From the IMG/VR virus record IMGVR_UViG_3300021171_000006, positions 1 through 64,000 of that record: a DNA stretch of 64,000 bases; one strand, written 5' to 3'. This document shows, piece after piece, positions 11,383-23,485 of this stretch. Both the position numbers and the translations under genes were made by a program. Position 1 is the stretch's first letter; each line of letters opens with the position of its first letter. The notes below the pieces were generated by a model. The model was not told the origin of the DNA. It saw only the letters and a list, made by a program, of their open reading frames with translations, and did not search any database. This DNA comes from a virus.

Positions 11383-12684
11383 ATGGCGGACACATCGCTC
11401 TCTCTGGACATAACAGCGCCGGCCCCCAGCGGGAGTGTTGCGGGGACGCAACTCGGCGGGATGCTGGCGGGGACGCAGCAGGATCGCTCCTCCCTACGGG
11501 CGGCTGGTCTCTCTTTCCCGGCTGAACTCTCGTCGATCCGCTCACAGGAAAAGGAGAGGGTCGACGCACTTGGACCTCCGCCACGCCTTACCCCCGAGCA
11601 GATGCAGCAGTATCTCGGGCCGGCACCGAAGCCGCAGACCCAGAGCCTTGTGGAGGAATGGGGTTCCCCGGCGATGATAATGGCGCTTCTCGGGTCGGCC
11701 TTTACCCGTCAGCCGCTGACCAATGCCCTCAACGCCGGCGGCGCAGTGATGAAAGCTTTTCAGCAACGCGACTTCGATGGGGCACGTTCAGCAGCCGCGC
11801 AATGGAAGGAGAACACCGACACCGCGCTCAAGCTGTACGAACTCCAGTCCAAGAGTTATGCCGCAGACATAAAGGCGATCCGCGAGGGGTCGGGTGACGC
11901 GATCAAGGATGCGGTAGCCAATCTTCGGGCGATGTCGGTCGCCTACAATGATCGGCCGCTGATGAACCTGCTTGCGGCCGGACGTTACGATTTAGCGGTC
12001 GATCGAGAAGATCGGCTTGCTAAGTCCGCCGCCGAGTTGCACACGAAGACCGAAATGATCAACGACGGTCTCACGAAACAACACGGCCTTTACGATGCGA
12101 CGACCGCTCTCGGAACCGCCAAGAAGGCGCTTGAGGCCGCGCAAAAGGGCGGCGACCAAGAAACGATCACGGCTGCGCAGACAGCTTACGACAACGCACA
12201 GGCGACCTATCAAAGCGCAGCCGACGATATGAAGGCGTGGGGAGACGCGCAGCAGGCGGCGAAGGGTGGGGCCAAACCACCAACCCGGGCCCAGCAGACC
12301 GACTCGCAGCTTAACGATAAGGCGCGCGCCGATCACGAAGCGCTGAGCAAGGGCGAGAGCGTAACCCACAACGACATCACGATATCGCCGGAGGATTGGG
12401 CGGCGCGCGACGACGCGATAAAATGGGGTCTGCTGTCTCAGCCGAAGCAGCACGCCATCCAGGACTTGATGAAACGTGCCAATATCCCGCAAGCCGCTGT
12501 CGGCGGACAGCCTGCCGCCAAGCCCGGCGGTGCTGCGCCAGCCGCTGGCGCGCCGCCAGCAAAATCGCCCCAGGAAACCCAGGCGCTCATTGCGCACGCT
12601 CGCGAGGCGATTGAAGCCGGGGCGGACCGCGACGCCGTAATAAAGAAATTGCGCGAAATGGGCGTTGATCCGTCGGGCTTGTAA
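11383..12684 (+). CDS. Internal virion / ejection protein candidate
   Basis: 433 residues, strongly helical with Ala/Lys/Asp-rich coiled-coil-like stretches (TKKALEAAQKGGDQETITAAQ), a more ordered N-terminal part (PPRLTPEQMQQYLGPAP, EWGSPAMIMALLGSAFTRQP) and a Pro/Ala linker before a C-terminal helix (IAHAREAIEAGADRDAVIKKLREMG) that resembles the short repeats seen at ends of ejected proteins. Starts one base after the preceding stop and its TAA overlaps the next ATG, so the three large genes form one translational block. Confidence 0.6.
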   Translation: MADTSLSLDITAPAPSGSVAGTQLGGMLAGTQQDRSSLRAAGLSFPAELSSIRSQEKERVDALGPPPRLTPEQMQQYLGPAPKPQTQSLVEEWGSPAMIMALLGSAFTRQPLTNALNAGGAVMKAFQQRDFDGARSAAAQWKENTDTALKLYELQSKSYAADIKAIREGSGDAIKDAVANLRAMSVAYNDRPLMNLLAAGRYDLAVDREDRLAKSAAELHTKTEMINDGLTKQHGLYDATTALGTAKKALEAAQKGGDQETITAAQTAYDNAQATYQSAADDMKAWGDAQQAAKGGAKPPTRAQQTDSQLNDKARADHEALSKGESVTHNDITISPEDWAARDDAIKWGLLSQPKQHAIQDLMKRANIPQAAVGGQPAAKPGGAAPAAGAPPAKSPQETQALIAHAREAIEAGADRDAVIKKLREMGVDPSGL

Positions 12685-15600
12685 TGCCGCCGCTCGACAG
12701 CAGCAATCCGTTCGGTGATCTGATTTCAGCCGCAAATGCAGCGAGCCCCCCGCCGCCCGCGCCAGCAACCGGGAATCCCTTTGCTGATCTTATCCCCGCG
12801 AAACCGGCGATCAAGCCGGCAGGGCCGACAGCGACCACCAATCCCTTTGCCGACCTGATCCCGAAACCTCCATCATGGACAGGGGTGGCTCGCGAGGCGG
12901 GCTGGAAGGGTCTTGTCCGGGGCGTCACCGAAACAGCAGAAGCGCCGACAGCGTTTCGCGATAGGCCACCTGAAAAGCCTGATACGTCGCCTGTCGGTCG
13001 TCTCTTGTCGCAGCCGATCAGCCGGGGTTATGCCGATCCGAAATGGTGGATCGCCCACATCGCTCATGGTGCAGCGGCTTCATCGCCGTCTTTGGCCTTG
13101 GGTTTGGGTGGGGCCGCTGCTGGCGGAGCCGTGGGCGGCCCGGTCGGAGGATTGATCGGCGGCGCTGGCGGCTTCGCGACAGGGTCGGCCGCCCAAACGG
13201 TCGCTCCAGCTTATATAAAGGCTCGGCAGGACGGCCTTGATCACGATGCGGCGGTCAAGCGCGCTATGACCGAGACTGGAATTGCCGCGCTGTTTGGGGC
13301 GGCCATGGGAGCGGCGCCAGTTGGCGTTGCTGCGGCTATCGAACGTCCTCTCTCTCGCGCACTCGCCGAAATTTTCGTGGTGCAACCCACGCTCGGCGTT
13401 GGTGAGGCGGCAACGACGGGGGCGGTCGAAGGTAAGATGCCGTCAGCCGATGAATTGGGGACCACCTATGCCGAACAAGCCGGCATGGGCGTCGGCCTGG
13501 TCGGGGCGCATGCGGCGGCGCGAAGGCTTATAGGCAGGGGGCCAAACGAACCATCAGATGAGGCGGTCCCCGAAGCCCCGCCGAAAGATATCGTCCCGCC
13601 GCCTCCGCCACCACCCGCTCCCTCGGCAACGAGACAGGAACCACCGCCGGTACGGGAAGGTCAGGAGCCGGCTCCGGGCCTCGACGCTGAGAAATTGCGA
13701 TCGTTTGGCATCACGCAGCTGAGCGACGGTACGTGGCGGACCCCCGACGGCAAAGCCGTGTGGGATCGCAACGGCAACCCACTCAACCGTACCGCCGAAA
13801 CGTGGACGCCTCCGCCCGTCGCGGAACCCGCCAAGGGCAATGTTCCAGGTGGAACACCGGCGACACCAGAAGCGCCCGCTGCCGCAGAAGCGCGCCCCGA
13901 ACCTCCGATCCCTGCCGCCGTGCCGACGCCAGGGTCTCCGCCTCTCACGGATTACGGGGCTGAGTACGAGGCTAACAGAGCCAGAGTGGCGGCAGCCGAA
14001 CGTGATGAACGCGTTCCACCGGCAACCCCTGACGAAATGTTGGAAATGAATAAACGCGTCAGCGAAGGCGACGTGAACCAAGGGGGTGCGTGGCATCCGA
14101 GTTCGCTGGTCTGGCCGCATGTTGAGCAGGAACAGACGCTTCGCGCTGCCGAGGCGCTTCTTCCTCCGGGGTGGAAGGCAGAGCCGCGGAACTTTGGATC
14201 GACAAACTACGGTGACAATTCGGACAGCCCGGGCAGGCTCCGAGATTCGGGCCGCAATGTCGCGATTATTAACCCAGAGGGCGCGACCGTAGGTCTTATG
14301 CAGAGGCCGGGTGATGTGAGCCGGCCATGGTTTCGTGATGCCGTTAGCGGCAAGGATACGCGCGGCGTCTATCAGGCGGCTACTGAGGCGGGAGAAGCTG
14401 CGGCCGGCGTTCCACCGGGAACCATCAGGCCGCCATTCCCACCCGGTCCGGGAGACCGGATGCCGGCAGCGAACGAGGCGGGGGCCGAATCGGGGACGCC
14501 CACGCCGAACCCCGCGACAGCCAAACGGATGCCGCGATCGACGATCCGCGAGGACACGGCGTTCATCCCGTCTAGCGGCGCATCGTTTCCAATCGAATAC
14601 GCCGTGGTCGAGGCGCGTGACCTGATCCCGTCGCACAACGAAGACCTGTCGCCAAACCCGGCCTTTCCACAAGCGCTACAACCCCGCAGCCGCGAACGGG
14701 CCGAGACCGAGGCCCAGATCAACGCTATCCTCAATGGCGATCCGTCCGACCCGGCAGCGACCTTCCGACCGGAGCTCATGGGCGAGAACCCAGACGCGAC
14801 GAACGGCGCGCCCATCGTAGGATGGGAAGGCTATGTCGAGAGCGGCAACGCCCGAACGATCGCGCTGCGGCGGGCCTATTCCCGCAAGCTGCCCCAAGCG
14901 GAGCGGTATCGCGAGTACCTTGCGGCGCAAGGGTATCCGGTCGAGGGCATGAAGGAACCGGTGCTGGTGCGGATTAACCGGGCGCCCATGAATATGCCAC
15001 AGCGGGAGCAGTTGGCGCGCGATCTCAATGTCGCCCCGCAGGCCACGATGTCGGCAACCGATCGGGCGATGGCTGACGCGGCACAAATTCCGCCCGACCT
15101 GCTGCGGCTCTATGGTGACGGCGATATCTTCTCCGCAGGCAACGCGCCGTTCTGGCGCAGCATCCTGACGCGCATCGCGAAGCCAGCCGAATTACCCGCG
15201 CTCACGGATCCGGAGGGCGGGTTGTCGCCGGCGGGGCAGACCCGATTGCGCAATGCCGTTCTCGCCAAGGCCTACGGGGATCCGCAATTCGTGGCGGCGC
15301 TGGTCGAGGACGCGGACTCGAACATCAAGGCGATTGGGAACGCTCTTCTCGACGCGGCCCCCCGTTGGGCGCAACTGAGGCAGGCCGTCGCCGATGGTCG
15401 AATCGATCCGAGTTTGGACGTGACGTCCTCGGTGATCGAGGCGGTGCGGCTCATCCGTTACGCCCGCGACAGCAAGCGGAACGTTGCCGAGTTCATGAAG
15501 CAGCGAGGCATGTTCGACGATGGCGTGTCGCCAAATACCGAGGGTGTGCTGTCGTGGCTTCTTGGGGCACCGGATTGGACTCGGCGATATTCGCGCGATA

Positions 15601-18600
15601 AGATGTCATTGGCGCTCGGCGAATATGCCGCCAGCGCGATGCGCGAACCCGGCATGCTGGGGACCGCGCCGCTCTCGTCGCAGGAGTTGATCGAAAATGC
15701 CCGACAGCGAGCACAAGGAGCAGCCGGAGACCTATTCTCCCCGGGTCTGGCCGAACCCCCGGGCGCAGGAATTGTTCGGGGAGGCGCTGGCGAAGGTAGG
15801 CCGGGAGACGAAGGACTTTCGGCTGCAGACGCTCGGCGCGCTGCACAAGAAGGCGGCGAAGGCGACGCAAGCCTAACCAAGCCGGCGCGTTCCACAACTG
15901 ACGAAGCCCGCGAATTTGCCTCCAAATATCCGATAGGCCCGGAAGGCACGCATCAGGCGGCGGTCGATTATGTCGTCGATGAGGGGCGTCGTACCGGGCA
16001 TGAGTATTTTGCTGCGGTCGATCACACGACCGACGACATCACGCATGCCGGCACTTCGGAGTCGCCCAGCTGGATCAGGTTCGACAAGTCGCTAATCGAC
16101 CGCCTTTGGGATCCTCGCGAAGAGCCGCTGGCGATCCATCACAATCATCCGCTCGACCTGCCGCTGTCGGCGCCAGATCTCGTCCTGCTCGCGATGCCGG
16201 GAGCGGGAAGTGTTACATCGCACGGCCCGGATGGGAGAGTCAGTTCTGCCGGGTTGACGCTCGACACGCGATGGAGATTGGCCGGGTTAAGCCCGCAAAC
16301 GCGGCAGGGTTGGCTTACCAGCGAGATCGTGAAGGCGACGAACGCCGCCAGGGACGCATTCGCTCCATTGTGGACCCGTGGCATGCTGTCGTCGGATCGC
16401 ACCGACCTATTGATCGCTGAGGGCCGCAATCGCCTTCTTGCAGCCTCCGGGGTGATCGACCATATCAGCAGCACTCCAGTACCGCCGTGGGCCACGCCGC
16501 TATTGGTGAAGGCGCTCACGCAACTGACGCCCGAACTATCCGAGGAAATCGCGCATGTTCGGCTTGATCGATCCACCGGGTTTCACAGCCCCGCTGACGC
16601 AGTGGCAGCAATTTCTCGCGCTCATGTTGCAGCTTCCGCAGGACGACCCGCAGGTGCAGTTGGCGGTGCAGGAGGCGCAGGAGGTCTTGGCGCGCAGGCA
16701 GGGCGAGGAGAGCCATCCAAACCCCCACCCCCCGAACTGAGCGGCATCGACGACGAGAAATCCACTTGGCCTCTCGAAGACCTGTTTGACGACGCCGAGC
16801 GCGAGATCGCGATGGATGCGAGCGGGATCTTCCCGCCTCGTCCGCCTCCTCCACCCGGTTTCACCAAGCGCATGCTGTCGGTCTTCGGGGCAAACCCGGA
16901 TTCGCCGTGGCGGGAGCGCCCGTGGATGCTGCCGTGGGAACGGCTTCTCGGGGCACCATCAAACATGGCGCGCTACAATGTCGGCGGTGTCTCGACGCAG
17001 AAATGGATCGCCGACCGCGCCCGCGATCAGCGGTCAGAGGTGTTGTTCAGCACCTACAAGGAGAGCCTAGCGCCGTTCACCAGCTTGACGGCGGATGAGC
17101 ACCAGAAGATCAATGCGGTGCTGGAAATCCAGCGGTTGAAGGGTGAGGAGCCGCCGCTCGACGGTGCGCCGATTTCCGCCACAAACGACACGCACACCCT
17201 CGCCTACCACTCAAAGCCCGGAGAGACACTCACGCTCGATACGCCGCGCCTGATCGCCGGCTATACGGCTGTACGGAAGACGTTGCGCGGCATCTACAAC
17301 GACTACATCGCCGCCACGGCAAAACGGCACGGATGGGAGGGCGAGCCGACGAGCGCCGCGATCAATGCGAGGGCGGAAGCGGAGAGAGCCTTTGGGCGCC
17401 CCGGAGAAGCGCGGCGGCTTGAATTTGTCGGCAAGATCGTGGGGTTGGCGGAATTCGCCCGCCGCAACGCTTACGTGCCCTTCATGCGGGAGGGGGATTA
17501 CTATTTCCGGGTGAAGCCCAAGACCGGCACCCCAGACAGACCGGGTGTACCGGGGTGGACCGGCGAAGGCTTTGCGCCGACCGTTTGGAACTCGCGCATC
17601 CAGTCGCGCTCAGGTCTCGACAAACTCACCGGACAGCCGATCGGCCCGTCGGCGACGATCAGAGACAACCTCGCCGAGATCCGGAAAACCTTCCCGGAGA
17701 GCCAATACACGATTGAGCACGGCTATTTCAAACCGGAGGAAAACCAGCTTCGCAAAATCGGGATCGAGACGATCGAAGATTTGTTCGACGCGGTAGGCCG
17801 CGATTTCCGGCGGGAATGGCGAGCGCGCGTCAAGGCCTCCGACAATCCCGAAGCCATGCGCAAGGCAGCCGATCAGGAAGAGGCAGAACACCGATTGGCT
17901 GTCGAGACGATCATGAACCAGATTTACGAGCGTCTTAGGGCCGGGTTCAAGCACGAGAGTCTGAATATTCCGGGGTATTCAGAGGATCTGAGCCACAGCA
18001 TCGCCCGGTACACAGTCTGGCTCTCAAACCACATCGCCGATCTTGAGTATCGCCAACGTATCGAGGCGGCCGATCAAGTGGTGGAAAGCTCCCCGGATGC
18101 TGAGACGCGCGGCATGTGGCAGCAGCGTGCGAGGGAGTTAGCTGAACCCCGGCGGGATTACGGGACCCAGCGGTTGCGTAACGCGGCCTTCTATTGGGCG
18201 CTTGGGGGAAACTTCGCCTCGACCATCAAGGTGATGCTGCACGGCCCGATGCTTGGATGGCCGCTGCTCTCGACCGGCGTCGGGAAAGCGCAATCCGCTA
18301 AGGAATATTTCCCGGCGTTCGCGAAACTTCTGAGTACGGTCAGGCTTGATCCGCAGGTCGGGTTTCGGCTCGACCCGCTTTCGCAGGCACGTAACGCTAG
18401 TGAGCGGGCGCTGATAGAGGAGAACCTGAAAAACGGCCGGTTGCACGCAAGCGGAGCCGAGGAGCTTGGGTTCGGCGCGATCCATGAAAAAGGGATGGAG
18501 GGCCTGGAGCCGCGCCACCGGATGCAACGACGCGTATTGAAAATCTGGGGAGCGAATATCGCTGCCGCCGATCAGACGATCCGTGGCGCCCTCCTCTTGT

Positions 18601-19910
18601 CTGCCTACCGGGTAGCGTCAAATCCGGCAACGATGGCCCGGCTTGATCGGATCTGGACGAGAGGCGACGCGCTGTGGCGTGACGCAGACTGGAACAAGGA
18701 GAGACGCGCGATCGACAGCGAGCTCGCGATGCTGCGAGAGGCGCGCGATGCCACCGGTAGCGATATACAAGACGACCGGATCACCGAGTTGGCCGAACGC
18801 CGCCGCGAGATCGAACGGCAGATGCCGGCCCGGTTCGCCGAATTCATCACCGACCGTGGAGCTGGGATCTGGGGGTCGGCGAATCGGCCTGAATTCGCGC
18901 GCCATCCTGCCGGGGGCCTCTTTTATCAGTTCCGGAATTACGAACTGAATTACCTATCCACGTTCCATCAGCTGATGTGGCACATGGGTCCGGAGGGAAA
19001 GCACGCGGCCCTTCTGATGCTGGCAAGCCTTGGACTGATGGCCGGCGCTGGCGGCATTCCATTCGCCCAGGACATCGAGGGGGCCAGCGAGTGGATCTAT
19101 AAATTCATAACCGGAATCGACCCGAACCTGAACGAACGCTTCCTTAGATGGATGGAAACCGACCCCTTGGGTTTGGGGAAGGATTTCGGCAAATACGTGC
19201 TCTACGGCGTGCCGGGGCAGATGCCGCACGGGGTGGCCATTGGACAGGGATTGTCGTTCGGCGATCTGATCAGCCGAAACGCCCGCTCGGTGCTCGACGT
19301 CGCTCCATCATTGTCGATCTTCGCCGGCGGTCTACAGCACGCGGCTGAGCGTTACCGGGGAGAGAATCCGACGGGCGACCTCACGGCTCCGGACGTGGCA
19401 AAATGGCTGTCGGTCGGCGGCGAGGTTATGCCGAACGCCATCAAGAACCTGGTCAAGGCGTATGGCGTCTACCCCGAAGAGGGTGTCCGCACGATGGCCG
19501 GCAAGACCGTGGTGCCGCCATGGCAGGTCACGGCGGAAGACAAATTGGCGCGCGCGGTGGGTCTGACCTCGGGTCATATCGAGAAGGTGTACCAGGAGTG
19601 GGAGCGGGATTACCGGCTGGGCGAAGCGTCCAACGCGAAGTCTGCCGCGCTGAACAAGCACCTCGCGTCTCTGGCAACGGACATGGTGAACGCAGAGCAT
19701 CGTGGCGACAAGGCGGCGGCGAAGGCGGCCGAGGATGAGGCGACCAGAATTGCTACGGCAGCCGGCGGAGATCCGAAAGCGCACGCCAGGGTATTCCGCG
19801 ATGCTGTCAAGGCCGCGCAAGACCCGATGCAGGGCCGGCTGCGGCACCTTCCGAAGGCCGTTCGGGGAGAGGCGGCAAAACCGCTGTTCATAGAACCGGG
19901 CGCACCGTAA
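12684..19910 (+). CDS. 2408-residue polyvalent virion protein
   Basis: Parts seen in order: three NPF(G/A)DLI repeats at residues 8, 31 and 53; Gly/Ala-rich hydrophobic stretches near 130-178 and 199-221; Pro-rich linkers; a DdrB/ParB-like region about 630-1005 (YAVVEARDLIPSHNEDLSPN, GNARTIALRRAY); a JAMM-like region about 1080-1290 with H1153-N-H1155-P and S1162-x2-D1165, candidate Glu1107; and ~1000 C-terminal residues of the large polyvalent-protein-associated type (NAYVPFMREGDYYF; GGLFYQFRNYELNYL). Family knowledge: polyvalent proteins are packaged and injected with phage DNA. Two +1-frame genes overlap its linkers (15697, 16555), where this frame becomes Gly/Ala/Pro-rich with low GC third positions. 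Last gene before the terminator. Confidence 0.75.
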   Translation: MPPLDSSNPFGDLISAANAASPPPPAPATGNPFADLIPAKPAIKPAGPTATTNPFADLIPKPPSWTGVAREAGWKGLVRGVTETAEAPTAFRDRPPEKPDTSPVGRLLSQPISRGYADPKWWIAHIAHGAAASSPSLALGLGGAAAGGAVGGPVGGLIGGAGGFATGSAAQTVAPAYIKARQDGLDHDAAVKRAMTETGIAALFGAAMGAAPVGVAAAIERPLSRALAEIFVVQPTLGVGEAATTGAVEGKMPSADELGTTYAEQAGMGVGLVGAHAAARRLIGRGPNEPSDEAVPEAPPKDIVPPPPPPPAPSATRQEPPPVREGQEPAPGLDAEKLRSFGITQLSDGTWRTPDGKAVWDRNGNPLNRTAETWTPPPVAEPAKGNVPGGTPATPEAPAAAEARPEPPIPAAVPTPGSPPLTDYGAEYEANRARVAAAERDERVPPATPDEMLEMNKRVSEGDVNQGGAWHPSSLVWPHVEQEQTLRAAEALLPPGWKAEPRNFGSTNYGDNSDSPGRLRDSGRNVAIINPEGATVGLMQRPGDVSRPWFRDAVSGKDTRGVYQAATEAGEAAAGVPPGTIRPPFPPGPGDRMPAANEAGAESGTPTPNPATAKRMPRSTIREDTAFIPSSGASFPIEYAVVEARDLIPSHNEDLSPNPAFPQALQPRSRERAETEAQINAILNGDPSDPAATFRPELMGENPDATNGAPIVGWEGYVESGNARTIALRRAYSRKLPQAERYREYLAAQGYPVEGMKEPVLVRINRAPMNMPQREQLARDLNVAPQATMSATDRAMADAAQIPPDLLRLYGDGDIFSAGNAPFWRSILTRIAKPAELPALTDPEGGLSPAGQTRLRNAVLAKAYGDPQFVAALVEDADSNIKAIGNALLDAAPRWAQLRQAVADGRIDPSLDVTSSVIEAVRLIRYARDSKRNVAEFMKQRGMFDDGVSPNTEGVLSWLLGAPDWTRRYSRDKMSLALGEYAASAMREPGMLGTAPLSSQELIENARQRAQGAAGDLFSPGLAEPPGAGIVRGGAGEGRPGDEGLSAADARRAAQEGGEGDASLTKPARSTTDEAREFASKYPIGPEGTHQAAVDYVVDEGRRTGHEYFAAVDHTTDDITHAGTSESPSWIRFDKSLIDRLWDPREEPLAIHHNHPLDLPLSAPDLVLLAMPGAGSVTSHGPDGRVSSAGLTLDTRWRLAGLSPQTRQGWLTSEIVKATNAARDAFAPLWTRGMLSSDRTDLLIAEGRNRLLAASGVIDHISSTPVPPWATPLLVKALTQLTPELSEEIAHVRLDRSTGFHSPADAVAAISRAHVAASAGRPAGAVGGAGGAGGLGAQAGRGEPSKPPPPELSGIDDEKSTWPLEDLFDDAEREIAMDASGIFPPRPPPPPGFTKRMLSVFGANPDSPWRERPWMLPWERLLGAPSNMARYNVGGVSTQKWIADRARDQRSEVLFSTYKESLAPFTSLTADEHQKINAVLEIQRLKGEEPPLDGAPISATNDTHTLAYHSKPGETLTLDTPRLIAGYTAVRKTLRGIYNDYIAATAKRHGWEGEPTSAAINARAEAERAFGRPGEARRLEFVGKIVGLAEFARRNAYVPFMREGDYYFRVKPKTGTPDRPGVPGWTGEGFAPTVWNSRIQSRSGLDKLTGQPIGPSATIRDNLAEIRKTFPESQYTIEHGYFKPEENQLRKIGIETIEDLFDAVGRDFRREWRARVKASDNPEAMRKAADQEEAEHRLAVETIMNQIYERLRAGFKHESLNIPGYSEDLSHSIARYTVWLSNHIADLEYRQRIEAADQVVESSPDAETRGMWQQRARELAEPRRDYGTQRLRNAAFYWALGGNFASTIKVMLHGPMLGWPLLSTGVGKAQSAKEYFPAFAKLLSTVRLDPQVGFRLDPLSQARNASERALIEENLKNGRLHASGAEELGFGAIHEKGMEGLEPRHRMQRRVLKIWGANIAAADQTIRGALLLSAYRVASNPATMARLDRIWTRGDALWRDADWNKERRAIDSELAMLREARDATGSDIQDDRITELAERRREIERQMPARFAEFITDRGAGIWGSANRPEFARHPAGGLFYQFRNYELNYLSTFHQLMWHMGPEGKHAALLMLASLGLMAGAGGIPFAQDIEGASEWIYKFITGIDPNLNERFLRWMETDPLGLGKDFGKYVLYGVPGQMPHGVAIGQGLSFGDLISRNARSVLDVAPSLSIFAGGLQHAAERYRGENPTGDLTAPDVAKWLSVGGEVMPNAIKNLVKAYGVYPEEGVRTMAGKTVVPPWQVTAEDKLARAVGLTSGHIEKVYQEWERDYRLGEASNAKSAALNKHLASLATDMVNAEHRGDKAAAKAAEDEATRIATAAGGDPKAHARVFRDAVKAAQDPMQGRLRHLPKAVRGEAAKPLFIEPGAP
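13839..13856. repeat. parS-like near-palindrome, copy 1
   Basis: 18-bp AATGTTCCAGGTGGAACA, identical to 61135-61152. The core TGTTCCA-GG-TGGAACA is palindromic except for the centre and differs from a parS-type TGTTCCACGTGGAACA by one base. It lies in the polyvalent gene and encodes NVPGGT. Confidence 0.7.
15697..15876 (+). CDS. Small gene nested in polyvalent-protein linker (first)
   Basis: 59-residue ORF in the +1 frame of the 2408-residue gene. It starts at an ATG ten bases after CAGGAG (15681-15686). The peptide reads like a real globular or helical protein (RVWPNPRAQELFGEALAKVG, LGALHKKAAKATQA), with roughly nine in ten third positions G or C, whereas the long frame here has about half and encodes low-complexity sequence. 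Function unknown. It lies exactly in the linker between the DdrB-ParB-like and JAMM-like regions. The alternative is a chance ORF. Confidence 0.5.
   Translation: MPDSEHKEQPETYSPRVWPNPRAQELFGEALAKVGRETKDFRLQTLGALHKKAAKATQA
16555..16740 (+). CDS. Small gene nested in polyvalent-protein linker (second)
   Basis: 61-residue ORF, again in the +1 frame of the long gene. ATG sits eight bases after GAGGA. The peptide is natural-looking and amphipathic (FTAPLTQWQQFLALMLQLPQ, VQEAQEVLARRQ); third positions are about 85-90% G/C, against roughly half in the long frame, which here gives Ala/Gly/Pro-rich text. It falls in the linker between the JAMM-like region and the LPD-type region. No family recognised. 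Confidence 0.5.
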   Translation: MFGLIDPPGFTAPLTQWQQFLALMLQLPQDDPQVQLAVQEAQEVLARRQGEESHPNPHPPN

Positions 19911-20081: not shown

Positions 20082-20111
20082 AACCCCGCCCTGAAACGAG
20101 CGGGGTTTTTG
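20082..20111 (+). terminator. Rho-independent terminator after virion operon
   Basis: Perfect 8-bp stem AACCCCGC (20082-20089) / GCGGGGTT (20100-20107), 10-base loop, and a T-rich tract (TTTTTGTTTG) running from the stem end. It closes the virion operon about 170 bases after the polyvalent gene. The rest of 19911-20207 shows only short open frames without ribosome sites and no convincing promoter for the tRNA array that follows. Confidence 0.85.
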
Positions 20112-20207
20112 TTTGACCATTGATCGAGCGACCCGGAAGGTGCCGTGGAATCCCGGCATCACAGAGCCGTATAGCCGGCCGCAGCGATCTTAGATTTTGT
20201 AATTTTC

Positions 20208-20281
20208 GGGGTACTCGTCCAATGGGAGGGCTCCTGTTTTGCAAGCAGGCAATCGGGGTTCGATTCCCCGGTACTCCACCA
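20208..20281 (+). tRNA. tRNA-Ala(TGC)
   Basis: Acceptor GGGGTAC/GTACTCC (one G-T), anticodon stem CCTGT/GCAGG with loop TTTGCAA, T-arm CGGGG TTCGATT CCCCG, encoded CCA. First tRNA of the array. Confidence 0.93.
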
Positions 20282-20285
20282 ATTC

Positions 20286-20359
20286 GCGGCCATCGTCTAA
20301 CGGCAAGACACGAGTCTGCCAGTCTCGGAATAGGGTTTCGACTACCCTTGGCCGCTCCA
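20286..20359 (+). tRNA. tRNA-Gly(GCC)
   Basis: Acceptor GCGGCCA/TGGCCGC perfect, anticodon loop CTGCCAG on a CGAGT/TCTCG stem with a T-T mismatch at the loop end, T-arm AGGGT TTCGACT ACCCT, encoded CCA. Confidence 0.9.
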
Positions 20360-20363
20360 ATAT

Positions 20364-20458
20364 GGGCGTCGGCTCTGGTGAGCGGGTGCGCCTTATAAGC
20401 GCGCGAGAGCGGGCGGACGGCCTGCAACGGTAGGGATCGTAACCCTAGACGCCTCCCA
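20364..20458 (+). tRNA. Class II tRNA, anticodon TAT by geometry
   Basis: Acceptor GGGCGTC/GACGCCT plus CCA; D-stem GCTC/GAGC with only a 4-base loop; anticodon stem TGCGC/GCGCG, loop CTTATAA; long variable arm with a 6-bp stem (GCGGGC/GCCTGC); T-stem TAGGG/CCCTA with loop ATCGTAA. Anticodon reads TAT (Ile, AUA), but a long variable arm is normal only for Ser, Leu and Tyr in bacteria, so identity is open. Confidence 0.6.
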
Positions 20459-20462
20459 TTTA

Positions 20463-20534
20463 TGCGGGTAGACCAAGGGTCCACTTAGGCTCATAACCTA
20501 GGAGGGGTCGGGGCAGTACCGACACCCGCAACCA
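20463..20534 (+). tRNA. tRNA-Met/Ile2 (CAT) with reduced loops
   Basis: Acceptor TGCGGGT/ACCCGCA perfect, anticodon stem TTAGG/CCTAG with loop CTCATAA, T-stem GTCGG/CCGAC. D-arm GACC-AAG-GGTC has a 3-base loop and the T-loop is GGCAGTA instead of TTCGA-type. CCA encoded. CAT could serve Met or, if modified to lysidine, Ile AUA. Confidence 0.75.
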
Positions 20535-20537
20535 TTC

Positions 20538-20613
20538 GCCCAGATAGCAAAGGTAGTCCTCGCGCGCCGTTGAAGGCGACGAAATCTTGGTGCGATCCCA
20601 AGTCTGGGCACCA
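20538..20613 (+). tRNA. tRNA-Phe(GAA)
   Basis: Acceptor GCCCAGA/TCTGGGC perfect, T-arm CTTGG TGCGATC CCAAG, encoded CCA. Anticodon stem CGCCG/CGACG has one mismatch with loop TTGAAGG, giving GAA. D-arm pairing is weak, so identity is a little less certain than for neighbours. Confidence 0.75.
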
Positions 20614-20614
20614 C

Positions 20615-20689
20615 GCGGCTATGACCGATTGGCAAAGGTCTCAGTCTTCCAAACTGAAGTTCCGGGTTCGATTCCCGGTAGCCGCTCCA
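20615..20689 (+). tRNA. tRNA-Gly(TCC)
   Basis: Acceptor GCGGCTA/TAGCCGC, anticodon arm TCAGT CTTCCAA ACTGA, T-arm CCGGG TTCGATT CCCGG, CCA encoded. Begins one base after the preceding tRNA. Confidence 0.93.
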
Positions 20690-20696
20690 GTTTCAT

Positions 20697-20774
20697 TGGC
20701 GGGTAGCACTCAGGGTGAGCGCGTCCGGCTGTTAACCGGAATTGAGGTCGGTTCGATCCCGACCCCGCCAGCCA
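20697..20774 (+). tRNA. tRNA-Asn(GTT)
   Basis: Acceptor TGGCGGG/CCCGCCA, anticodon arm TCCGG CTGTTAA CCGGA, T-arm GTCGG TTCGATC CCGAC, CCA encoded. Confidence 0.93.
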
Positions 20775-20776
20775 TT

Positions 20777-20844
20777 ACCGCCGCGATCCGGGATCAACGG
20801 AGCCTCCAAAACTCCGGATGAGGGTTCGACTCCTTCCGGCGGTG
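20777..20844 (+). tRNA. tRNA-Trp(CCA), short D-arm, no encoded CCA
   Basis: Acceptor ACCGCCG/CGGCGGT perfect; anticodon stem GGAGC/ACTCC (one mismatch), loop CTCCAAA; T-arm GAGGG TTCGACT CCTTC. D-arm GATC-CGG-GATC has a 3-base loop, so the molecule is only 68 bases; CTA follows where CCA would be. Confidence 0.8.
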
Positions 20845-20848
20845 CTAA

Positions 20849-20923
20849 GTCCCGATGGCAGAGCGGCAAATGCGCGGGTCTGCAAAACCCGTTACGCCGG
20901 TTCAACTCCGGCTCGGGACTCCA
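20849..20923 (+). tRNA. tRNA-Cys(GCA)
   Basis: Acceptor GTCCCGA/TCGGGAC, anticodon arm CGGGT CTGCAAA ACCCG, T-arm GCCGG TTCAACT CCGGC, CCA encoded. Confidence 0.93.
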
Positions 20924-20930
20924 GTTTGAT

Positions 20931-21005
20931 GGCGGGTATCGTCTAATGGTAGGACGGGAGATTGTGGATCTCCTAACGCGGGTTCGATCCCCGCTACTCG
21001 CCCCA
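20931..21005 (+). tRNA. tRNA-His(GTG)
   Basis: Acceptor GCGGGTA/TACTCGC with an extra 5' G(-1) at 20931 facing C73, the His identity pair; anticodon arm GGAGA TTGTGGA TCTCC; T-arm GCGGG TTCGATC CCCGC; CCA encoded. Confidence 0.95.
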
Positions 21006-21079
21006 GCCCGGTCAGCACGATGGCCGTGCAGCGGTCTTGTAAACCGCTGATGGGAGTTCGATCCTCTCACCGGGCACCA
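21006..21079 (+). tRNA. tRNA-Thr(TGT)
   Basis: Abuts the His tRNA without a spacer. Acceptor GCCCGGT/ACCGGGC, anticodon arm GCGGT CTTGTAA ACCGC, T-arm GGGAG TTCGATC CTCTC, CCA encoded. Confidence 0.93.
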
Positions 21080-21095
21080 GACAAGAGGAGGGGGT

Positions 21096-21281
21096 ATGAT
21101 GGTCAATCAGGACGACATTCGCCTTCTCCGGGAGATCACCGCGCGGCAGCGCGATGAGTTGATGGGGATTAGCACACCAGCTAGTGCATCGGTCTCTGAC
21201 ACCGAGGAATCCGGGGCGGCACCGGAATCCCCTTCCAACACAGACGGCGGGTTTTCGAGTGGCCTCGACGCGAGTCCTTGA
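21096..21281 (+). CDS. Small ORF inside tRNA array
   Basis: 61 residues behind a very strong ribosome site (AGAGGAGGGGG). Acidic, Ser/Ala-rich and probably disordered after a helical start (NQDDIRLLREITARQRDELM). Its last 36 bases overlap the 5' half of the tRNA-Gln gene. It separates 11 tRNAs upstream from 21 downstream. No family recognised. If translated, ribosomes would compete with folding or processing of that tRNA. Confidence 0.55.
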   Translation: MMVNQDDIRLLREITARQRDELMGISTPASASVSDTEESGAAPESPSNTDGGFSSGLDASP

Positions 21282-21320
21282 AATTCGTAGATCAGGGTTC
21301 GATCCCCTGGCCCGCTTCCA
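21246..21320 (+). tRNA. tRNA-Gln(TTG), C33
   Basis: Acceptor GGCGGGT/GCCCGCT with two G-T pairs, anticodon stem CGAGT/ATTCG, loop CCTTGAA (C rather than T at position 33), T-arm CAGGG TTCGATC CCCTG, CCA encoded. The 5' part overlaps the small ORF ending at 21281. Confidence 0.78.
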
Positions 21321-21396
21321 CGCTCCTTCGGCTACTGGCTAGGCCGCCACCCTCTCAAGGTGGAGAAGTCGGGATCGAAACCCACAGGAGCGACCA
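21321..21396 (+). tRNA. tRNA-Glu(CTC)
   Basis: Abuts the previous CCA. Acceptor CGCTCCT/AGGAGCG, anticodon arm CCACC CTCTCAA GGTGG, T-loop ATCGAAA on a weak 3-bp GGG/CCC stem, CCA encoded. Confidence 0.82.
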
Positions 21397-21402
21397 GTTT
21401 AT

Positions 21403-21477
21403 GCCCCGCTAGCCCAACTTGGTAGAGGCGCCTGATTTAGGATCAGGAGGTTCGGCGTTCGAGTCGCCGGCGGGGTA
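21403..21477 (+). tRNA. tRNA-Leu(TAG), class I body, no CCA
   Basis: Acceptor GCCCCGC/GCGGGGT, canonical D-loop (TTGGTAGAG), anticodon arm CCTGA TTTAGGA TCAGG, 5-base variable loop, T-arm CGGCG TTCGAGT CGCCG. Anticodon TAG reads CUA/CUG, yet the long variable arm of bacterial tRNA-Leu is absent. CCA is not encoded (CGG); the next tRNA begins two bases after position 73. Confidence 0.82.
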
Positions 21478-21478
21478 C

Positions 21479-21564
21479 GGAGGGCGCCGCTAAATGGCTG
21501 GCGACTGGTCCTGAAAACCAGGGTTTCCGAAAGGATAGGGGTTCGATTCCTCCGCCCTCCGCCA
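21479..21564 (+). tRNA. tRNA-Ser(TGA), C33
   Basis: Acceptor GGAGGGC/GCCCTCC, anticodon arm CTGGT CCTGAAA ACCAG (C at 33), class II variable arm with TTTCC...GGA pairing, T-loop TTCGATT, CCA encoded; 86 bases. Confidence 0.85.
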
Positions 21565-21569
21565 ATCAT

Positions 21570-21657
21570 GGAAGATGCTCGGGCTGGCTCCCGAAGCGGT
21601 TTGCTAAACCGTAGTGGCTCGCAAGGGCCAATGGTTCGACGCCATCATCTTCCGCCA
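21570..21657 (+). tRNA. tRNA-Ser(GCT)
   Basis: Acceptor GGAAGAT/ATCTTCC, anticodon arm GCGGT TTGCTAA ACCGT, long variable arm (TGGCTCGCAAGGGCCA), T-loop TTCGACG, CCA encoded; 88 bases. Confidence 0.9.
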
Positions 21658-21659
21658 CC

Positions 21660-21733
21660 GCCTTCGTAGCACAACAGCAGTGCGCCGCTTTGGTAAGGCG
21701 GAAATCCCGGAGCATCACCGGGCGAAGGCTCCA
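21660..21733 (+). tRNA. tRNA-Thr(GGT), noncanonical T-loop
   Basis: Acceptor GCCTTCG/CGAAGGC, D-stem GCAC/GTGC, anticodon arm CCGCT TTGGTAA GGCGG, T-stem CCCGG/CCGGG but T-loop AGCATCA, which lacks TTC. CCA encoded. Confidence 0.83.
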
Positions 21734-21734
21734 G

Positions 21735-21818
21735 CCGTGGTGAAACCGCGAGGCTGCGGAACGTGTCTGTAAAACACGGCCCTTCGGGGGAGCTGTTCGA
21801 TTCGGCCACCACGGACCA
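21735..21818 (+). tRNA. tRNA-Tyr(GTA)
   Basis: Acceptor CCGTGGT/ACCACGG, anticodon arm CGTGT CTGTAAA ACACG, class II variable arm (GCCCTTCGGGGGAGC), T-loop TTCGATT, CCA encoded. Confidence 0.93.
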
Positions 21819-21823
21819 ATTTT

Positions 21824-21899
21824 GCCGGCGTCTTCCAACGGCCAGGAAGCCCGCCCGATAAGCGGGTAACGTTCGGTTCGACTCCGACCGCCGGTCCCA
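21824..21899 (+). tRNA. tRNA-Ile(GAT), C33
   Basis: Acceptor GCCGGCG/CGCCGGT, anticodon arm CCCGC CCGATAA GCGGG (C at 33), T-loop TTCGACT, CCA encoded. Confidence 0.87.
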
Positions 21900-21903
21900 G
21901 TAT

Positions 21904-21977
21904 GGGCTCGTAATTCAATGGTAGAATAGCTGGCTCTTAACCAGCCCATGAGGGTTCGATTCCTTCCGGGCCTACCA
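21904..21977 (+). tRNA. tRNA-Lys(CTT)
   Basis: Acceptor GGGCTCG/CGGGCCT, anticodon arm GCTGG CTCTTAA CCAGC, T-arm GAGGG TTCGATT CCTTC, CCA encoded. Confidence 0.92.
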
Positions 21978-21980
21978 CTT

Positions 21981-22055
21981 GCGCCTGTCGCACTCTGGGA
22001 GTGCCGCCGCCTGTCTAGCGGATGCAGGAGGGTTCGATCCCCTTCGGGCGCGCCA
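21981..22055 (+). tRNA. tRNA-Asp(GTC)
   Basis: Acceptor GCGCCTG/CGGGCGC, D-stem GCAC/GTGC, anticodon loop CTGTCTA on CCGC/GCGG, T-loop TTCGATC, CCA encoded. Confidence 0.88.
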
Positions 22056-22056
22056 C

Positions 22057-22133
22057 CTGCGCGTTACGGTAGCGGCTAACCGCCCTGGTTTGGGACCAGG
22101 AATTCGGGGGTTCGAGTCCCTCCGCGCAGACCA
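22057..22133 (+). tRNA. tRNA-Pro(TGG)
   Basis: Acceptor CTGCGCG/CGCGCAG, anticodon arm CCTGG TTTGGGA CCAGG, T-loop TTCGAGT, CCA encoded. Confidence 0.92.
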
Positions 22134-22138
22134 TTTTC

Positions 22139-22210
22139 GCCCTTCTCAGCGGACCTGGGCGCGGGTTTCCTAAACCTGCTGACGCGGTTCGACTCCGCGG
22201 AGGGGCGCCA
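22139..22210 (+). tRNA. tRNA-Arg(CCT), short D-arm
   Basis: Acceptor GCCCTTC/GAGGGGC, anticodon arm CGGGT TTCCTAA ACCTG, T-arm CGCGG TTCGACT CCGCG, CCA encoded. Only 16 bases lie between acceptor and anticodon stem. Confidence 0.88.
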
Positions 22211-22213
22211 ATA

Positions 22214-22291
22214 CGGGGTGTAGCTCAGTCAGGCCAGAGTGTCCGGTTCGGAACCGGAAGATCGGTGGTTCAAATCCACCCACCCCGACCA
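22214..22291 (+). tRNA. tRNA-Pro(CGG)
   Basis: Fully canonical: acceptor CGGGGTG/CACCCCG, anticodon arm TCCGG TTCGGAA CCGGA, T-loop TTCAAAT, CCA encoded. Confidence 0.95.
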
Positions 22292-22295
22292 ATTT

Positions 22296-22369
22296 GCCTC
22301 GCTCGTCTAATGGTAGGGCCGCTGGCTTACATCCAGCAGATGGCGGTTCGATTCCGTCGCGAGGTACCA
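22296..22369 (+). tRNA. tRNA-Val(TAC)
   Basis: Acceptor GCCTCGC/GCGAGGT, anticodon arm GCTGG CTTACAT CCAGC, T-loop TTCGATT, CCA encoded. Confidence 0.92.
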
Positions 22370-22443
22370 CGCGCGGTCGTCTAAGGAAGGACACTTGCCT
22401 TTCAAGCAGGGTAACGCGGGTTCAAATCCCGTCCGCGCGACCA
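22370..22443 (+). tRNA. tRNA-Glu(TTC)
   Basis: Abuts tRNA-Val. Acceptor CGCGCGG/CCGCGCG, anticodon arm CTTGC CTTTCAA GCAGG, T-loop TTCAAAT, CCA encoded. Confidence 0.92.
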
Positions 22444-22447
22444 ACTC

Positions 22448-22519
22448 GCCCTCACCAGTGGATCTGGCTTGGTGGCTACGAACCACCTATGCGCGGTTCG
22501 ATTCCGTGTGGGGGCTCCA
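22448..22519 (+). tRNA. tRNA-Arg(ACG), compressed D-arm
   Basis: Acceptor GCCCTCA/TGGGGGC, anticodon arm GGTGG CTACGAA CCACC, T-arm CGCGG TTCGATT CCGTG, CCA encoded. D-arm CCAG-TGGAT-CTGG follows the acceptor directly, without positions 8-9. Confidence 0.88.
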
Positions 22520-22523
22520 TTCC

Positions 22524-22596
22524 GGGCTTAGCGCTGGGACGCGGGCGGGTCTTCTAAACTTGCCGACGCACGGTTCGATTCCGTGTAAGCCCACCA
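22524..22596 (+). tRNA. tRNA-Arg(TCT), short D-arm
   Basis: Acceptor GGGCTTA/TAAGCCC, anticodon arm CGGGT CTTCTAA ACTTG, T-arm CACGG TTCGATT CCGTG, CCA encoded. Only 15 bases between acceptor and anticodon stem. Confidence 0.88.
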
Positions 22597-22597
22597 T

Positions 22598-22669
22598 GCG
22601 CTCACCAGCGGATCTGGCGTCTGGCCTCCGAAGCCGGAATGCGGCGTTCGACTCGCCGTGGGCGCGCCA
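22598..22669 (+). tRNA. tRNA-Arg(CCG), compressed D-arm
   Basis: Acceptor GCGCTCA/TGGGCGC, anticodon arm CTGGC CTCCGAA GCCGG, T-loop TTCGACT, CCA encoded. D-arm CCAG-CGGAT-CTGG is nearly identical to that of tRNA-Arg(ACG), pointing to duplication. Confidence 0.9.
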
Positions 22670-22672
22670 TTT

Positions 22673-22749
22673 GGGCGCCTATGCAAATTGGCAAAGCAGT
22701 TTCGCTCAAAACGAAATGTATCAGGGTTCGACTCCCTGGGCGCCTACCA
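22673..22749 (+). tRNA. tRNA-Leu(CAA), class I body
   Basis: Acceptor GGGCGCC/GGCGCCT, anticodon arm TTTCG CTCAAAA CGAAA, 5-base variable loop, T-arm CAGGG TTCGACT CCCTG, CCA encoded. The Leu anticodon sits on a body without a long variable arm. Confidence 0.85.
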
Positions 22750-22750
22750 T

Positions 22751-22825
22751 GCCTCGCTGGTGTAACGGCAGCATATCCGGCTTTTAACCGGTAAGGACAG
22801 GGTTCGAATCCTTGGCGGGGTACCA
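22751..22825 (+). tRNA. tRNA-Lys(TTT)
   Basis: Acceptor GCCTCGC/GCGGGGT, anticodon loop CTTTTAA on CCGG/CCGG, T-loop TTCGAAT, CCA encoded. Confidence 0.9.
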
Positions 22826-22827
22826 TA

Positions 22828-22901
22828 GCTGGCGTAGCATAGCGGCAGTGCAGCCGGTTCGTACCCGGCCGACGCTGGTTCGAGTCCAGCCGCCAGCACC
22901 A
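22828..22901 (+). tRNA. tRNA-Thr(CGT)
   Basis: Acceptor GCTGGCG/CGCCAGC, anticodon arm GCCGG TTCGTAC CCGGC, T-arm GCTGG TTCGAGT CCAGC, CCA encoded. Last tRNA, 11 bases before the HNH gene. Confidence 0.93.
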
Positions 22902-22912: not shown

Positions 22913-23485
22913 ATGTCATCCGCAGCCCGGAAGCTAGGATCGCTGCGGACGCTTGTGCTCAATGCCGATGGCCGCCCTCTGACGACTTGGCCGCTCAGCC
23001 TTGTCTCGGCTCAAGATGCGGTTTCGACGATCTGGCGTGATCGCGCCTACGTGGTCGAGACATGGGAGGATGCGTTCTTTCGTTCGCCCTCCGTGACGAT
23101 CGCGGTGCCGAAGGCGATGATGCTGCGCGAGTATGCGCACACCGGAAAGCACCCGAAGTTCTGCCGGGCGTCGATCTACCTGCGTGATCGGTTTACGTGC
23201 CAATTCTGCGGCAAGCGATTCGAGCGCTCCGAGTTGACGTTCGACCACCTGCTGCCGCGCCGGCTGGGCGGACGCACGGTATGGGACAACATTCTTTCGG
23301 CGTGCCTGCGGTGCAACGCACAGAAGGGCGACCGCACGGCCGAGCAAGCGGGCATGCGTCCGCTGAGCCTGCCGCGCCAGCCGACCACGGCAGAATTGCT
23401 ACGTGCGGGGCTTGAATTGCTGCCCAACGACATCCGCGACGATTTTGGTTCCTGGTTGTATTGGAACACACCGCTGCAAAGCTGA
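22913..23485 (+). CDS. HNH endonuclease family protein
   Basis: 190 residues. N-terminal half is the helper region of the phage/bacterial HNH family (LVLNADGRPLTTWPLSLVS). The nuclease core has CQFCG (C96, C99), FDHLLPRRLGG with catalytic D111-H112, N126 in WDNILSAC and C131-x2-C134, so both zinc knuckle pairs and the HNH triad are present. Likely free-standing nicking or packaging-associated nuclease; next to a tRNA array a homing role is also possible. ATG follows an AGGAG site directly after the last tRNA. Confidence 0.88.
   Translation: MSSAARKLGSLRTLVLNADGRPLTTWPLSLVSAQDAVSTIWRDRAYVVETWEDAFFRSPSVTIAVPKAMMLREYAHTGKHPKFCRASIYLRDRFTCQFCGKRFERSELTFDHLLPRRLGGRTVWDNILSACLRCNAQKGDRTAEQAGMRPLSLPRQPTTAELLRAGLELLPNDIRDDFGSWLYWNTPLQS

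Follow-up and report, generated by a model that had tools for sequence, protein, structure and literature searches.

Complete tRNA sets have already been described in phages. A 2019 survey counts eight clusters in viruses that are complete for the 20 isotypes (PMC6409571), and XacN1 is reported to carry 56 tRNAs for 20 amino acids (PMC5852040). The annotation of Streptomyces phage JPandJE (46 kb) lists 22 tRNAs, with every one of the 20 amino acids represented. In mycobacteria and cyanobacteria, tRNA array units cover 19-20 amino acids and are proposed to act in antidefence (PMC12803027). Phage tRNAs are also described as countering tRNA-cutting defence (PMC10264068), including T5 against PARIS AriB (PMC12409363) and T6 tRNA-Tyr against Septu (PMC13096335).

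The window analysed here comprises the first 64,000 nucleotides of IMG/VR record IMGVR_UViG_3300021171_000006, a tailed-phage record of 91 kb. A 2.7-kb tRNA array was found on the + strand at 20208-22901. Over these 2,694 bases, ARAGORN and a loose cloverleaf scan together gave 33 tRNA genes, and none of the 20 amino acids was left without a tRNA. A viral tRNA gene cluster has at least two tRNA genes per kb and the largest have 20 isotypes; the array falls within this class. It resembles the 20-isotype clusters of the survey, XacN1 and JPandJE in being dense, complete and carried by a tailed phage. A sequence-only reading had placed 32 tRNAs for all amino acids here; position, strand and coverage were confirmed but the count was one short, the overlooked gene being tRNA-Gln(CTG). 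The contents were Ala1, Arg4, Asn1, Asp1, Cys1, Gln2, Glu2, Gly2, His1, Ile2 (GAU and a class-II UAU), Leu2, Lys2, Met1, Phe1, Pro2, Ser2, Thr3, Trp1, Tyr1 and Val1. The tRNA of unclear identity in that reading was probably the class-II UAU gene. The features are listed below; tRNAs were found by both ARAGORN and the cloverleaf scan unless marked "scan only" (not ARAGORN).

20088..20113, +, weak terminator-like hairpin upstream of the array (1 found, 4.1 expected in shuffles)
20208..20281, +, tRNA-Ala(TGC), G3:U70 retained
20286..20359, +, tRNA-Gly(GCC)
20364..20458, +, class-II tRNA(TAT), variable region 27 bases, T-loop ATCGTAA (A54-U58)
20463..20534, +, tRNA-Met(CAT), T-loop GGCAGTA (G54-G58, G55), very short D-loop, scan only
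20538..20613, +, tRNA-Phe(GAA), T-loop TGCGATC (G55)
20615..20689, +, tRNA-Gly(TCC)
20697..20774, +, tRNA-Asn(GTT)
20777..20847, +, tRNA-Trp(CCA), short D-arm, tail GCTA, scan only
20849..20923, +, tRNA-Cys(GCA)
20932..21005, +, tRNA-His(GTG)
21006..21079, +, tRNA-Thr(TGT)
21163..21237, +, tRNA-Gln(CTG), T-loop GGCGGCA (G54-G58, G55), D-loop AG, scan only, with synteny in G010 and G002
21246..21320, +, tRNA-Gln(TTG), C33, scan only
21321..21396, +, tRNA-Glu(CTC), T-loop ATCGAAA (A54-A58), T-stem of three pairs only
21403..21478, +, tRNA-Leu(TAG), variable loop 5 bases
21479..21564, +, tRNA-Ser(TGA), C33, scan only
21570..21657, +, tRNA-Ser(GCT)
21660..21733, +, tRNA-Thr(GGT), T-loop AGCATCA (A54-U58, G55), D-loop AG
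21735..21818, +, tRNA-Tyr(GTA), scan only
21824..21899, +, tRNA-Ile(GAT), C33
21904..21977, +, tRNA-Lys(CTT)
21981..22055, +, tRNA-Asp(GTC), anticodon stem of 4 pairs and U37 by hand reading
22057..22133, +, tRNA-Pro(TGG)
22139..22210, +, tRNA-Arg(CCT), short D-arm
22214..22291, +, tRNA-Pro(CGG)
22296..22369, +, tRNA-Val(TAC)
22370..22443, +, tRNA-Glu(TTC)
22448..22519, +, tRNA-Arg(ACG), short D-arm, scan only
22524..22596, +, tRNA-Arg(TCT), short D-arm
22598..22669, +, tRNA-Arg(CCG), short D-arm, scan only
22673..22749, +, tRNA-Leu(CAA), variable loop 5 bases
22751..22825, +, tRNA-Lys(TTT)
22828..22901, +, tRNA-Thr(CGT)
22913..23485, +, HNH endonuclease gene, 11 bases past the last tRNA; its position after the array is conserved in three relatives

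ARAGORN predicted 25 tRNAs over the whole window, every one within the array. Rfam RF00005 gave 17 matches at the gathering score in the window and 19 when the search space was cut to 2.9 kb; in the 2.9-kb search three class-II genes matched weakly as tRNA-Sec. The cloverleaf scan ignored the T-loop sequence and gave 33 matches in the array at a score of at least 18.5, with two on the opposite strand. Chance was ruled out as the origin of these matches by the 67,853 bases downstream, in which no match was found on either strand at the lower cut-off of at least 17.5. The eight genes dropped by ARAGORN included the sole Met, Trp and Tyr tRNAs. Gln(CTG) was also missed by Rfam, and it precedes Gln(TTG) in relatives G010 and G002 as it does here. 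A 61-amino-acid ORF at 21096-21281 overlaps it and was rejected as a gene. The scan assigned a CTA anticodon to the tRNA at 21981-22055, which was overruled by ARAGORN and synteny in favor of Asp-GTC. Gene order was the same, with different letters, in G010, G002, G020 and a metagenome-assembled genome (MAG) contig. Across eight arrays ARAGORN missed 24 of 53 altered tRNAs compared to 19 of 196 unaltered ones. In several of these tRNAs, as in those of related viruses, near-universal elbow bases are swapped for matching alternatives, and standard gene finders therefore miss some members of the set.

The bases U54, U55, G18, G19 and C56 are regarded as near-universal in tRNA (PMC7912444, PMC7566577). 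The array as a whole departs from the canonical bacterial elongator form (U54, U55, C56; D-loop GG; U33). Altered T-loops lacking U54 or U55 were found in six of the 33 tRNAs, C33 in three and shortened D-arms in seven, beside the long variable arm of the tRNA(UAU) and the short variable arms of the Leu tRNAs. All 38 chromosomal tRNAs of the MAG, a control of one bacterial genome, were canonical in T-loop, U33 and D length; C33 occurred there in 0/38. T-loops were TTC in 26/26 tRNAs of XacN1 and 16/16 of JPandJE in the stretches scanned, whereas 6/33 were non-TTC here. The novelty of the array is this structural remodelling, which the sequence-only reading overlooked. No paper on altered T-loops or an 18-55 exchange in phage tRNAs was found among the titles and abstract openings listed in searches of open-access literature. 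A18-G55 also occurs in arrays of Laspinema and Gloeobacterales. The mycobacterial and cyanobacterial units differ in being plasmid- or chromosome-borne and in having fewer altered elbows.

Covariation was analysed in 517 distinct tRNAs from 25 records, with p-values that ignore kinship. Pair 54-58 alternated U-A with G-G or A-U, at a mutual information of 1.02 bits compared to 0.47 for the best of 20,000 shuffles. Pair 18-55 alternated G-U with A-G (odds ratio 686). U55 occurred with D-loop GG in 396 tRNAs and AG in five, and G55 with AG in 26 and GG in three; these exceptions are three of 29 scorable G55 tRNAs, a further 11 lying outside the scoring. By eye, pair 19-56 had A19-U56 in 3/4 and U19-A56 in 4/7 variants beside G-C. 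The altered elbows of isolated phages, such as Erythrobacter phage L02 and Rhodobacter phage RcXuper, obey the same matching rule. Stems and T-loop/D-loop contacts were thus kept by compensatory change, in accordance with a canonical fold. Zagryadskaya, Doyon and Steinberg reportedly found in 2003 that an E. coli suppressor tRNA selected in the laboratory was active with G54-G58 in place of U54-A58. The exchange is the same here but natural, and coupled to A18-G55.

The array is probably transcribed as one long RNA, from which host enzymes would cut and charge the tRNAs for use on phage mRNA. The altered tRNAs would still fold to the L and act in translation, and the set would keep phage translation going when host tRNAs run short or are cut. 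That these are working elongator tRNAs is very probable, and the replacement of failing host tRNAs is somewhat favored as their purpose; the two together form a reading which we consider reasonably likely. The altered elbow, C33 and D-arms may be retained because host enzymes that read canonical forms fail to recognize such tRNAs, the candidates being tRNA-cutting defences or modification enzymes at U54, U55 and G18. Such escape as the reason for the elbow is possible but less than even in our estimate; nothing links the altered elbow to one particular nuclease, and the canonical T-loops of several complete-set phages (JPandJE, XacN1) counted against it. Nuclease-evading phage tRNAs also depart from host tRNAs at enzyme-read positions; the known examples are changed in the variable loop or the anticodon arm, whereas the present array has a matched T-loop/D-loop exchange. 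A still more tentative proposal is that arrays of phages and mobile elements share an alternative elbow (G54-G58 or A54-U58, A18-G55, A19-U56 or U19-A56) which switches between orthologues, keeps the L-shape and sheds the bases used by host nucleases and modification enzymes. This would yield a partly orthogonal, attack-resistant pool undercounted by annotation.

Decay, in which several members are pseudogenes and the set is incomplete in practice, was the least probable of the alternatives. Because ARAGORN omits the sole Met, Trp and Tyr genes, a standard scan on its face rejects unique members, which the sequence-only reading had named as fatal to its claim. The T-stem of Glu-CTC is poor and Trp ends in GCTA, both weak points in a working set. 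The relatives and the covariation overturned the outcome of the scan. Orthologues of the dropped genes in relatives keep their order and their stems although the letters differ, and stem scores of non-TTC tRNAs were not lower (16.3, n = 45, compared to 16.0, n = 113, both biased by the score threshold). Since the tertiary contacts of the elbow covary over the 517 tRNAs, the departures from canon are, as judged from sequence, not signs of decay. Use outside translation is unlikely, if a little less so than decay; the altered tRNAs would then translate poorly or not at all, and would tie up nucleases, modification enzymes or defence sensors as inhibitors or decoys. Changes at U54, U55, G18 and the D-arms could weaken translation, and the staphylococcal cell-wall tRNA-Gly, whose T-loop is altered, is an earlier case of a tRNA used off the ribosome. 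A decoy role is mentioned for phage tRNA-Tyr in PMC13096335 and soil UAU allo-tRNAs are described as unusable in E. coli (PMC7609411, section 7). Against this the altered tRNAs include sole members of the complete set (Met, Phe) and retain anticodon arms, identity signals, encoded CCA and elbow geometry. The signal G3:U70 was kept in 6/6 Ala tRNAs, and CCA was encoded in 43/45 altered tRNAs of five arrays, a proportion biased by the scan score.

Codon compensation, in which the tRNAs supplement the host for codons that the phage uses more and the oddities are tolerated drift, was also improbable but the strongest of the three. It is a long-standing hypothesis for phage tRNAs (PMC10264068), and single gene copies could matter at high phage copy number. 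The array serves every amino acid and not just a chosen few, it covers both frequent and rare codons, and drift leaves the matched tertiary exchange unexplained. As a one-of-each set, it looks more like a substitute for lost host tRNAs than a top-up for a few rare codons. With superwobble the set decodes 99.8% of 25,617 codons; UUA (53 codons) was the only codon with no clear reader by this count. No initiator tRNA was found in the array, the sole Met tRNA being without initiator features. The earlier suggestion that a complete set would sustain phage translation after host tRNA cleavage or loss was partly supported: the set is complete, but the data do not support full independence.

If still working, the elbow-altered tRNAs could become orthogonal tRNAs. 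Natural arrays with matched base exchange amount to an experiment in which the tRNA elbow is probed by compensatory mutation, and whether phage tRNAs are remodelled to escape elbow-reading enzymes becomes directly testable. The arrays further reveal that ARAGORN, a tRNA finder in common use, misses some of their members.

A DNA search of phage records with 9720-19910 gave no match. The array gave short tRNA matches only against phage records at the DNA level, with none for the UAU gene, and short matches only in a plasmid search. The terminase search found four distant records and the 2408-amino-acid protein had only partial matches under 60%; no relative was found in viral-contig scans using two large proteins. 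The syntenic Acetobacteraceae MAG contig had no protein in common with the window's record by tblastn, and host assignment through it is weak. Homologues of the HNH gene lie among scattered unannotated tRNA-like genes in Tunturi_5 and approximately 7 kb from one tRNA in Phosso, with no tRNA-like match nearby in Atu_ph07 and RHph_TM30.

The shortened-D-arm Arg pattern occurred in six stretches in the genomes of 84,980 species. Five of the six loci were tRNA arrays; the sixth, in Mycobacterium OAS707, had no tRNA there and was taken as chance. All 17 stretches in viral contigs sat among tRNA genes. As its loci are arrays, the pattern is not an ordinary chromosomal feature and a host-derived origin of the shortened D-arm was rejected.

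Allo-tRNAs from soil have 8/4 or 9/3 acceptor branches and UAU is common among them (PMC7609411, section 7, citing Mukai et al. 2017). The array UAU gene shares their long variable arm and non-Ser anticodon but differs in its 7/5 structure, in which 99.4% of cells were paired across six tRNAs with double changes in 15/27 pairs. Its identification as an allo-tRNA was rejected by these stems. Soil polycistrons of allo-tRNAs with other irregular tRNAs are on record in the same section, and it is a guess that these are phage arrays of the present type. Among Ser identity elements, base 73 was A in five of the six UAU tRNAs and C in the other, while Ser tRNAs of the arrays mostly had G73. A model search matched 3/385 alphaproteobacterial genomes, namely the array-bearing MAG contig, L099 and L100, and in a family sample 1/200, again the array-bearing contig. 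The UAU genes of L099 and L100 lie outside arrays and have ordinary T-loops; the class-II UAU tRNA is therefore not phage-specific.

The tRNA genes of the window lie in a single array. The features discussed are listed below.

20208-22901, + strand: array of tRNA genes
20364-20458, + strand: class-II tRNA with anticodon UAU and a long variable region
21163-21237, within the array: tRNA-Gln(CTG), T-loop GGCGGCA
21403-21478 and 22673-22749, within the array: the two tRNA-Leu genes

ARAGORN predicted 25 tRNAs. Rfam recognized 17 at gathering score and 19 when the search was limited to the array stretch. When the gaps were read by hand the count rose to 32, the number given by the sequence-only reading. 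A hand-made cloverleaf scan, whose score is biased toward TTC and CCA, was also applied. A match had to show an acceptor stem, an anticodon arm in which position 33 is U or C and position 37 a purine, and a T-stem closing a 7-base loop whose sequence was left free; U33 was obligatory in the first version. The scan gave 33 matches at ≥18.5 in the array and two on the array's own opposite strand, and no match at ≥17.5 in 67,853 bases downstream on both strands. The additional gene is tRNA-Gln(CTG), so the count of 32 was one too low. Gln-CTG precedes Gln-TTG at the equivalent place in related arrays. A 61-amino acid ORF called in this region overlaps tRNA-Gln(CTG) and is probably not a gene. The ARAGORN check proposed by the sequence-only reading placed every call inside the array on the + strand but listed only 25.

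At least one tRNA was found for each of the 20 amino acids, as had been claimed. Under plain wobble rules, 82.7% of 25,617 codons can be read by the set; superwobble by U34 tRNAs raises this to 99.8%, with UUA (53 codons) still lacking a clear reader. Bacterial initiator tRNAs usually have an unpaired first base and a GGG/CCC anticodon stem. In the sole Met tRNA the first base is paired and the anticodon stem lacks GGG/CCC, so by these signs it is not an initiator. Complete phage tRNA sets are already known. In phage JPandJE, 46 kb long, 22 annotated tRNAs cover all 20 amino acids, a viral tRNA survey describes eight clusters with complete sets (PMC6409571) and a complete set is reported for phage XacN1 (PMC5852040).

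Several tRNAs of the array depart from the canonical form. T-loops without U54 or U55, here termed altered, were present in 6 of 33.

Altered T-loops in the window
UAU: ATCGTAA
Met: GGCAGTA
Phe: TGCGATC
Gln-CTG: GGCGGCA
Glu-CTC: ATCGAAA
Thr-GGT: AGCATCA

The D region is shorter than 17 bases in seven of the 33 (UAU, Met, Trp and four Arg). U33 is near-universal in tRNAs; C33 was present in three of 33 (Gln-TTG, Ser-TGA and Ile-GAT). C33 in the Ile(GAT) isoacceptor recurs across unrelated phages, being found in the window, the viral relatives G010 and G002, XacN1, RcXuper and MD18. Bacterial tRNA-Leu normally has a long variable arm. The variable loop is 5 bases in both window Leu tRNAs and ≤6 bases in 45 of 51 Leu tRNAs of the arrays, while it is long in 30/30 Ser tRNAs. 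An Acetobacteraceae metagenome-assembled genome (MAG) has one contig with a similar array, and its other contigs served as a control from one genome. All 38 scored control tRNAs were canonical in T-loop, U33 and D length, and a 39th stretch gave no scan match. Both scored control Leu tRNAs had a variable loop of 13. Across eight arrays ARAGORN missed 24 of 53 tRNAs without U54-U55 compared to 19 of 196 with them, and the cloverleaf scan missed 10 tRNAs listed by ARAGORN.

The contacts of the elbow, where T-loop and D-loop meet (canonically U54-A58, G18-U55 and G19-C56), were compared in 517 distinct tRNAs pooled from 25 records, mostly arrays. The T-loops comprised 442 TTC, 22 TGC and 53 other. 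A58 was present in 441 of the 442 TTC loops. U54 was absent from 44 loops, whose 54-58 pairs were G-G (17), A-U (15), C-A (5), A-A (4) and one each of C-C, A-G and C-U. Mutual information between 54 and 58 was 1.02 bits compared to a peak of 0.47 in 20,000 shuffles. A60 was found in 34/53 other-type loops compared to 9/442 TTC loops. One report describes A54-A58 with purine 60 in eukaryotic tRNA-Ala and states that its unusual pairs have not been seen in tRNAs of bacteria or archaea (PMC7566577).

Positions 18-19 were assigned by rule. They were GG in 396 and AG in five U55 tRNAs, and AG in 26 and GG in three G55 tRNAs (odds ratio 686, Fisher p 2e-33, with tRNAs treated as independent though they are related). 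A further 72 U55 and 11 G55 tRNAs were not scorable or other, mostly with short D-loops, and four had A/C55. An earlier, looser count gave AG in 32/40 G55 tRNAs. The 26 AG/G55 tRNAs are spread over 10 records, including two Laspinema arrays and one Gloeobacterales array. That arrays from different phyla share the pattern is a better argument than the p-values, because these assume an independence which fails. C56 was absent in 12/691 tRNAs, with G56 in one; A19 stood opposite U56 in 3/4 and U19 opposite A56 in 4/7 (assigned by eye). The Thr-GGT T-loop is AGCATCA in the window, GTCAGTA in both G010 and a further viral relative, G020, and TTCAAGT in G002. Such differences in type between orthologues fit repeated switching.

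Decay of the tRNAs is disfavored because the tertiary partners are exchanged as matched sets. Judged from sequence, such exchange is the mark of selection on a folded, working elbow, which decay would not leave. The acceptor signals support charging, since G3:U70 is present in 6/6 Ala tRNAs and base 73 is the expected one in most isotypes. The exceptions are A73 in G010 Asn, U73 in G002 Ser-GCT and, in the window, C73 in both Ile genes. Phage tRNAs with altered cleavage sites are an established counter-defense. Modification enzymes act on U54, U55 and G18 (PMC7912444), Cas12a3 is described as holding the T-arm backbone (PMC12851939) and AriB seems to read beyond the anticodon stem (PMC12409363). 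These points make it plausible that the altered elbow would allow escape from host enzymes reading the canonical form. Just as likely, it may reflect a relaxed need for host modification.

Eight further named phages and JPandJE were scanned in part on both strands at ≥19, giving 192 matches (183 TTC and nine not TTC). The four array-strand tRNAs without U54 agreed with the covariation described above.

Named-phage tRNAs without U54
RcXuper His: ATCGTTA (A54-U58)
MD18 Ser: ATCAAGA
Erythrobacter L02 Val: GGCAGCA (G54-G58), A18-G55, AGCAGTA in D region
Erythrobacter L02 Gly: ATCGTAA (A54-U58)

A fifth match (CCCCAAA, C-A), which lies opposite the array strand in Tunturi_5, was taken as chance. 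No base-54-altered tRNA was found in the stretches scanned of XacN1, Angela, SPAsTU, XM05 and JPandJE. The 16-kb locus of Erythrobacter phage vB_EliS-L02 (66311-82395) gave 25 scan matches; an 8-kb unannotated stretch there holds tRNA-like genes, including altered elbows. Tunturiibacter phage Tunturi_5 has 39 tRNA-like + strand matches in 40 kb (220154-260585) and its deposited record lists no tRNA.

The class-II UAU pattern matched six stretches. Six homologues were compared; each has a variable region of 27 bases and keeps U72. Of 162 cells (27 pairs, six homologues) 99.4% were paired, two-sided changes occurred in 15 pairs compared to 6.2 in shuffles, and pairing was lost when partners were slid. 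By its anticodon this tRNA would read AUA without a lysidine-modified CAU tRNA, which bacteria are described as generally using (PMC11938285). Two class-II UAU genes are single, outside arrays and have ordinary T-loops. They lie in alphaproteobacterial genomes (G234 and G557), and the phage gene may have come from such bacterial genes.

The parent record of 91,353 bases, whose positions 1-64,000 form the window, is that of a tailed phage, as its proteins include terminase large subunit, RecT, phage lysozyme and structural proteins. The short-D-arm Arg tRNA pattern was found in 17 viral stretches, all amid tRNA genes. The window's gene order is largely followed in the arrays of G010, G002, G020 and the MAG contig; scan matches in the relative G008 were identical to those of G002. 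The terminase is shared with G010 (49% identity, one of six records searched), as are many structural proteins, and a 2,408-amino acid protein with G020 (one of nine records searched). An HNH gene 3' of the array is kept in G020 (65%), G010 (57%) and G002 (62%). Neither the terminase nor the 2,408-amino acid protein had a match in G002, and retention of the HNH gene there suggests that it and the array may travel together. In phage T6 a GIY-YIG homing endonuclease, thus of another type than the HNH gene here, adjoins tRNA genes and is reported to amplify them (PMC13096335). Three further loci were noted.

12684-19910, + strand: the 2,408-amino acid protein, with a DdrB/ParB-like domain, related to P1 DdrB and directly upstream of the array
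3128-3700, + strand: protein with a ferritin-like domain (Pfam Ferritin, E 9.7e-18) amid phage structural genes
74827-76086 and 76079-76726 of the record, both + strand: M16 peptidase with both domains beside a DnaJ-domain protein, unusual company in a phage
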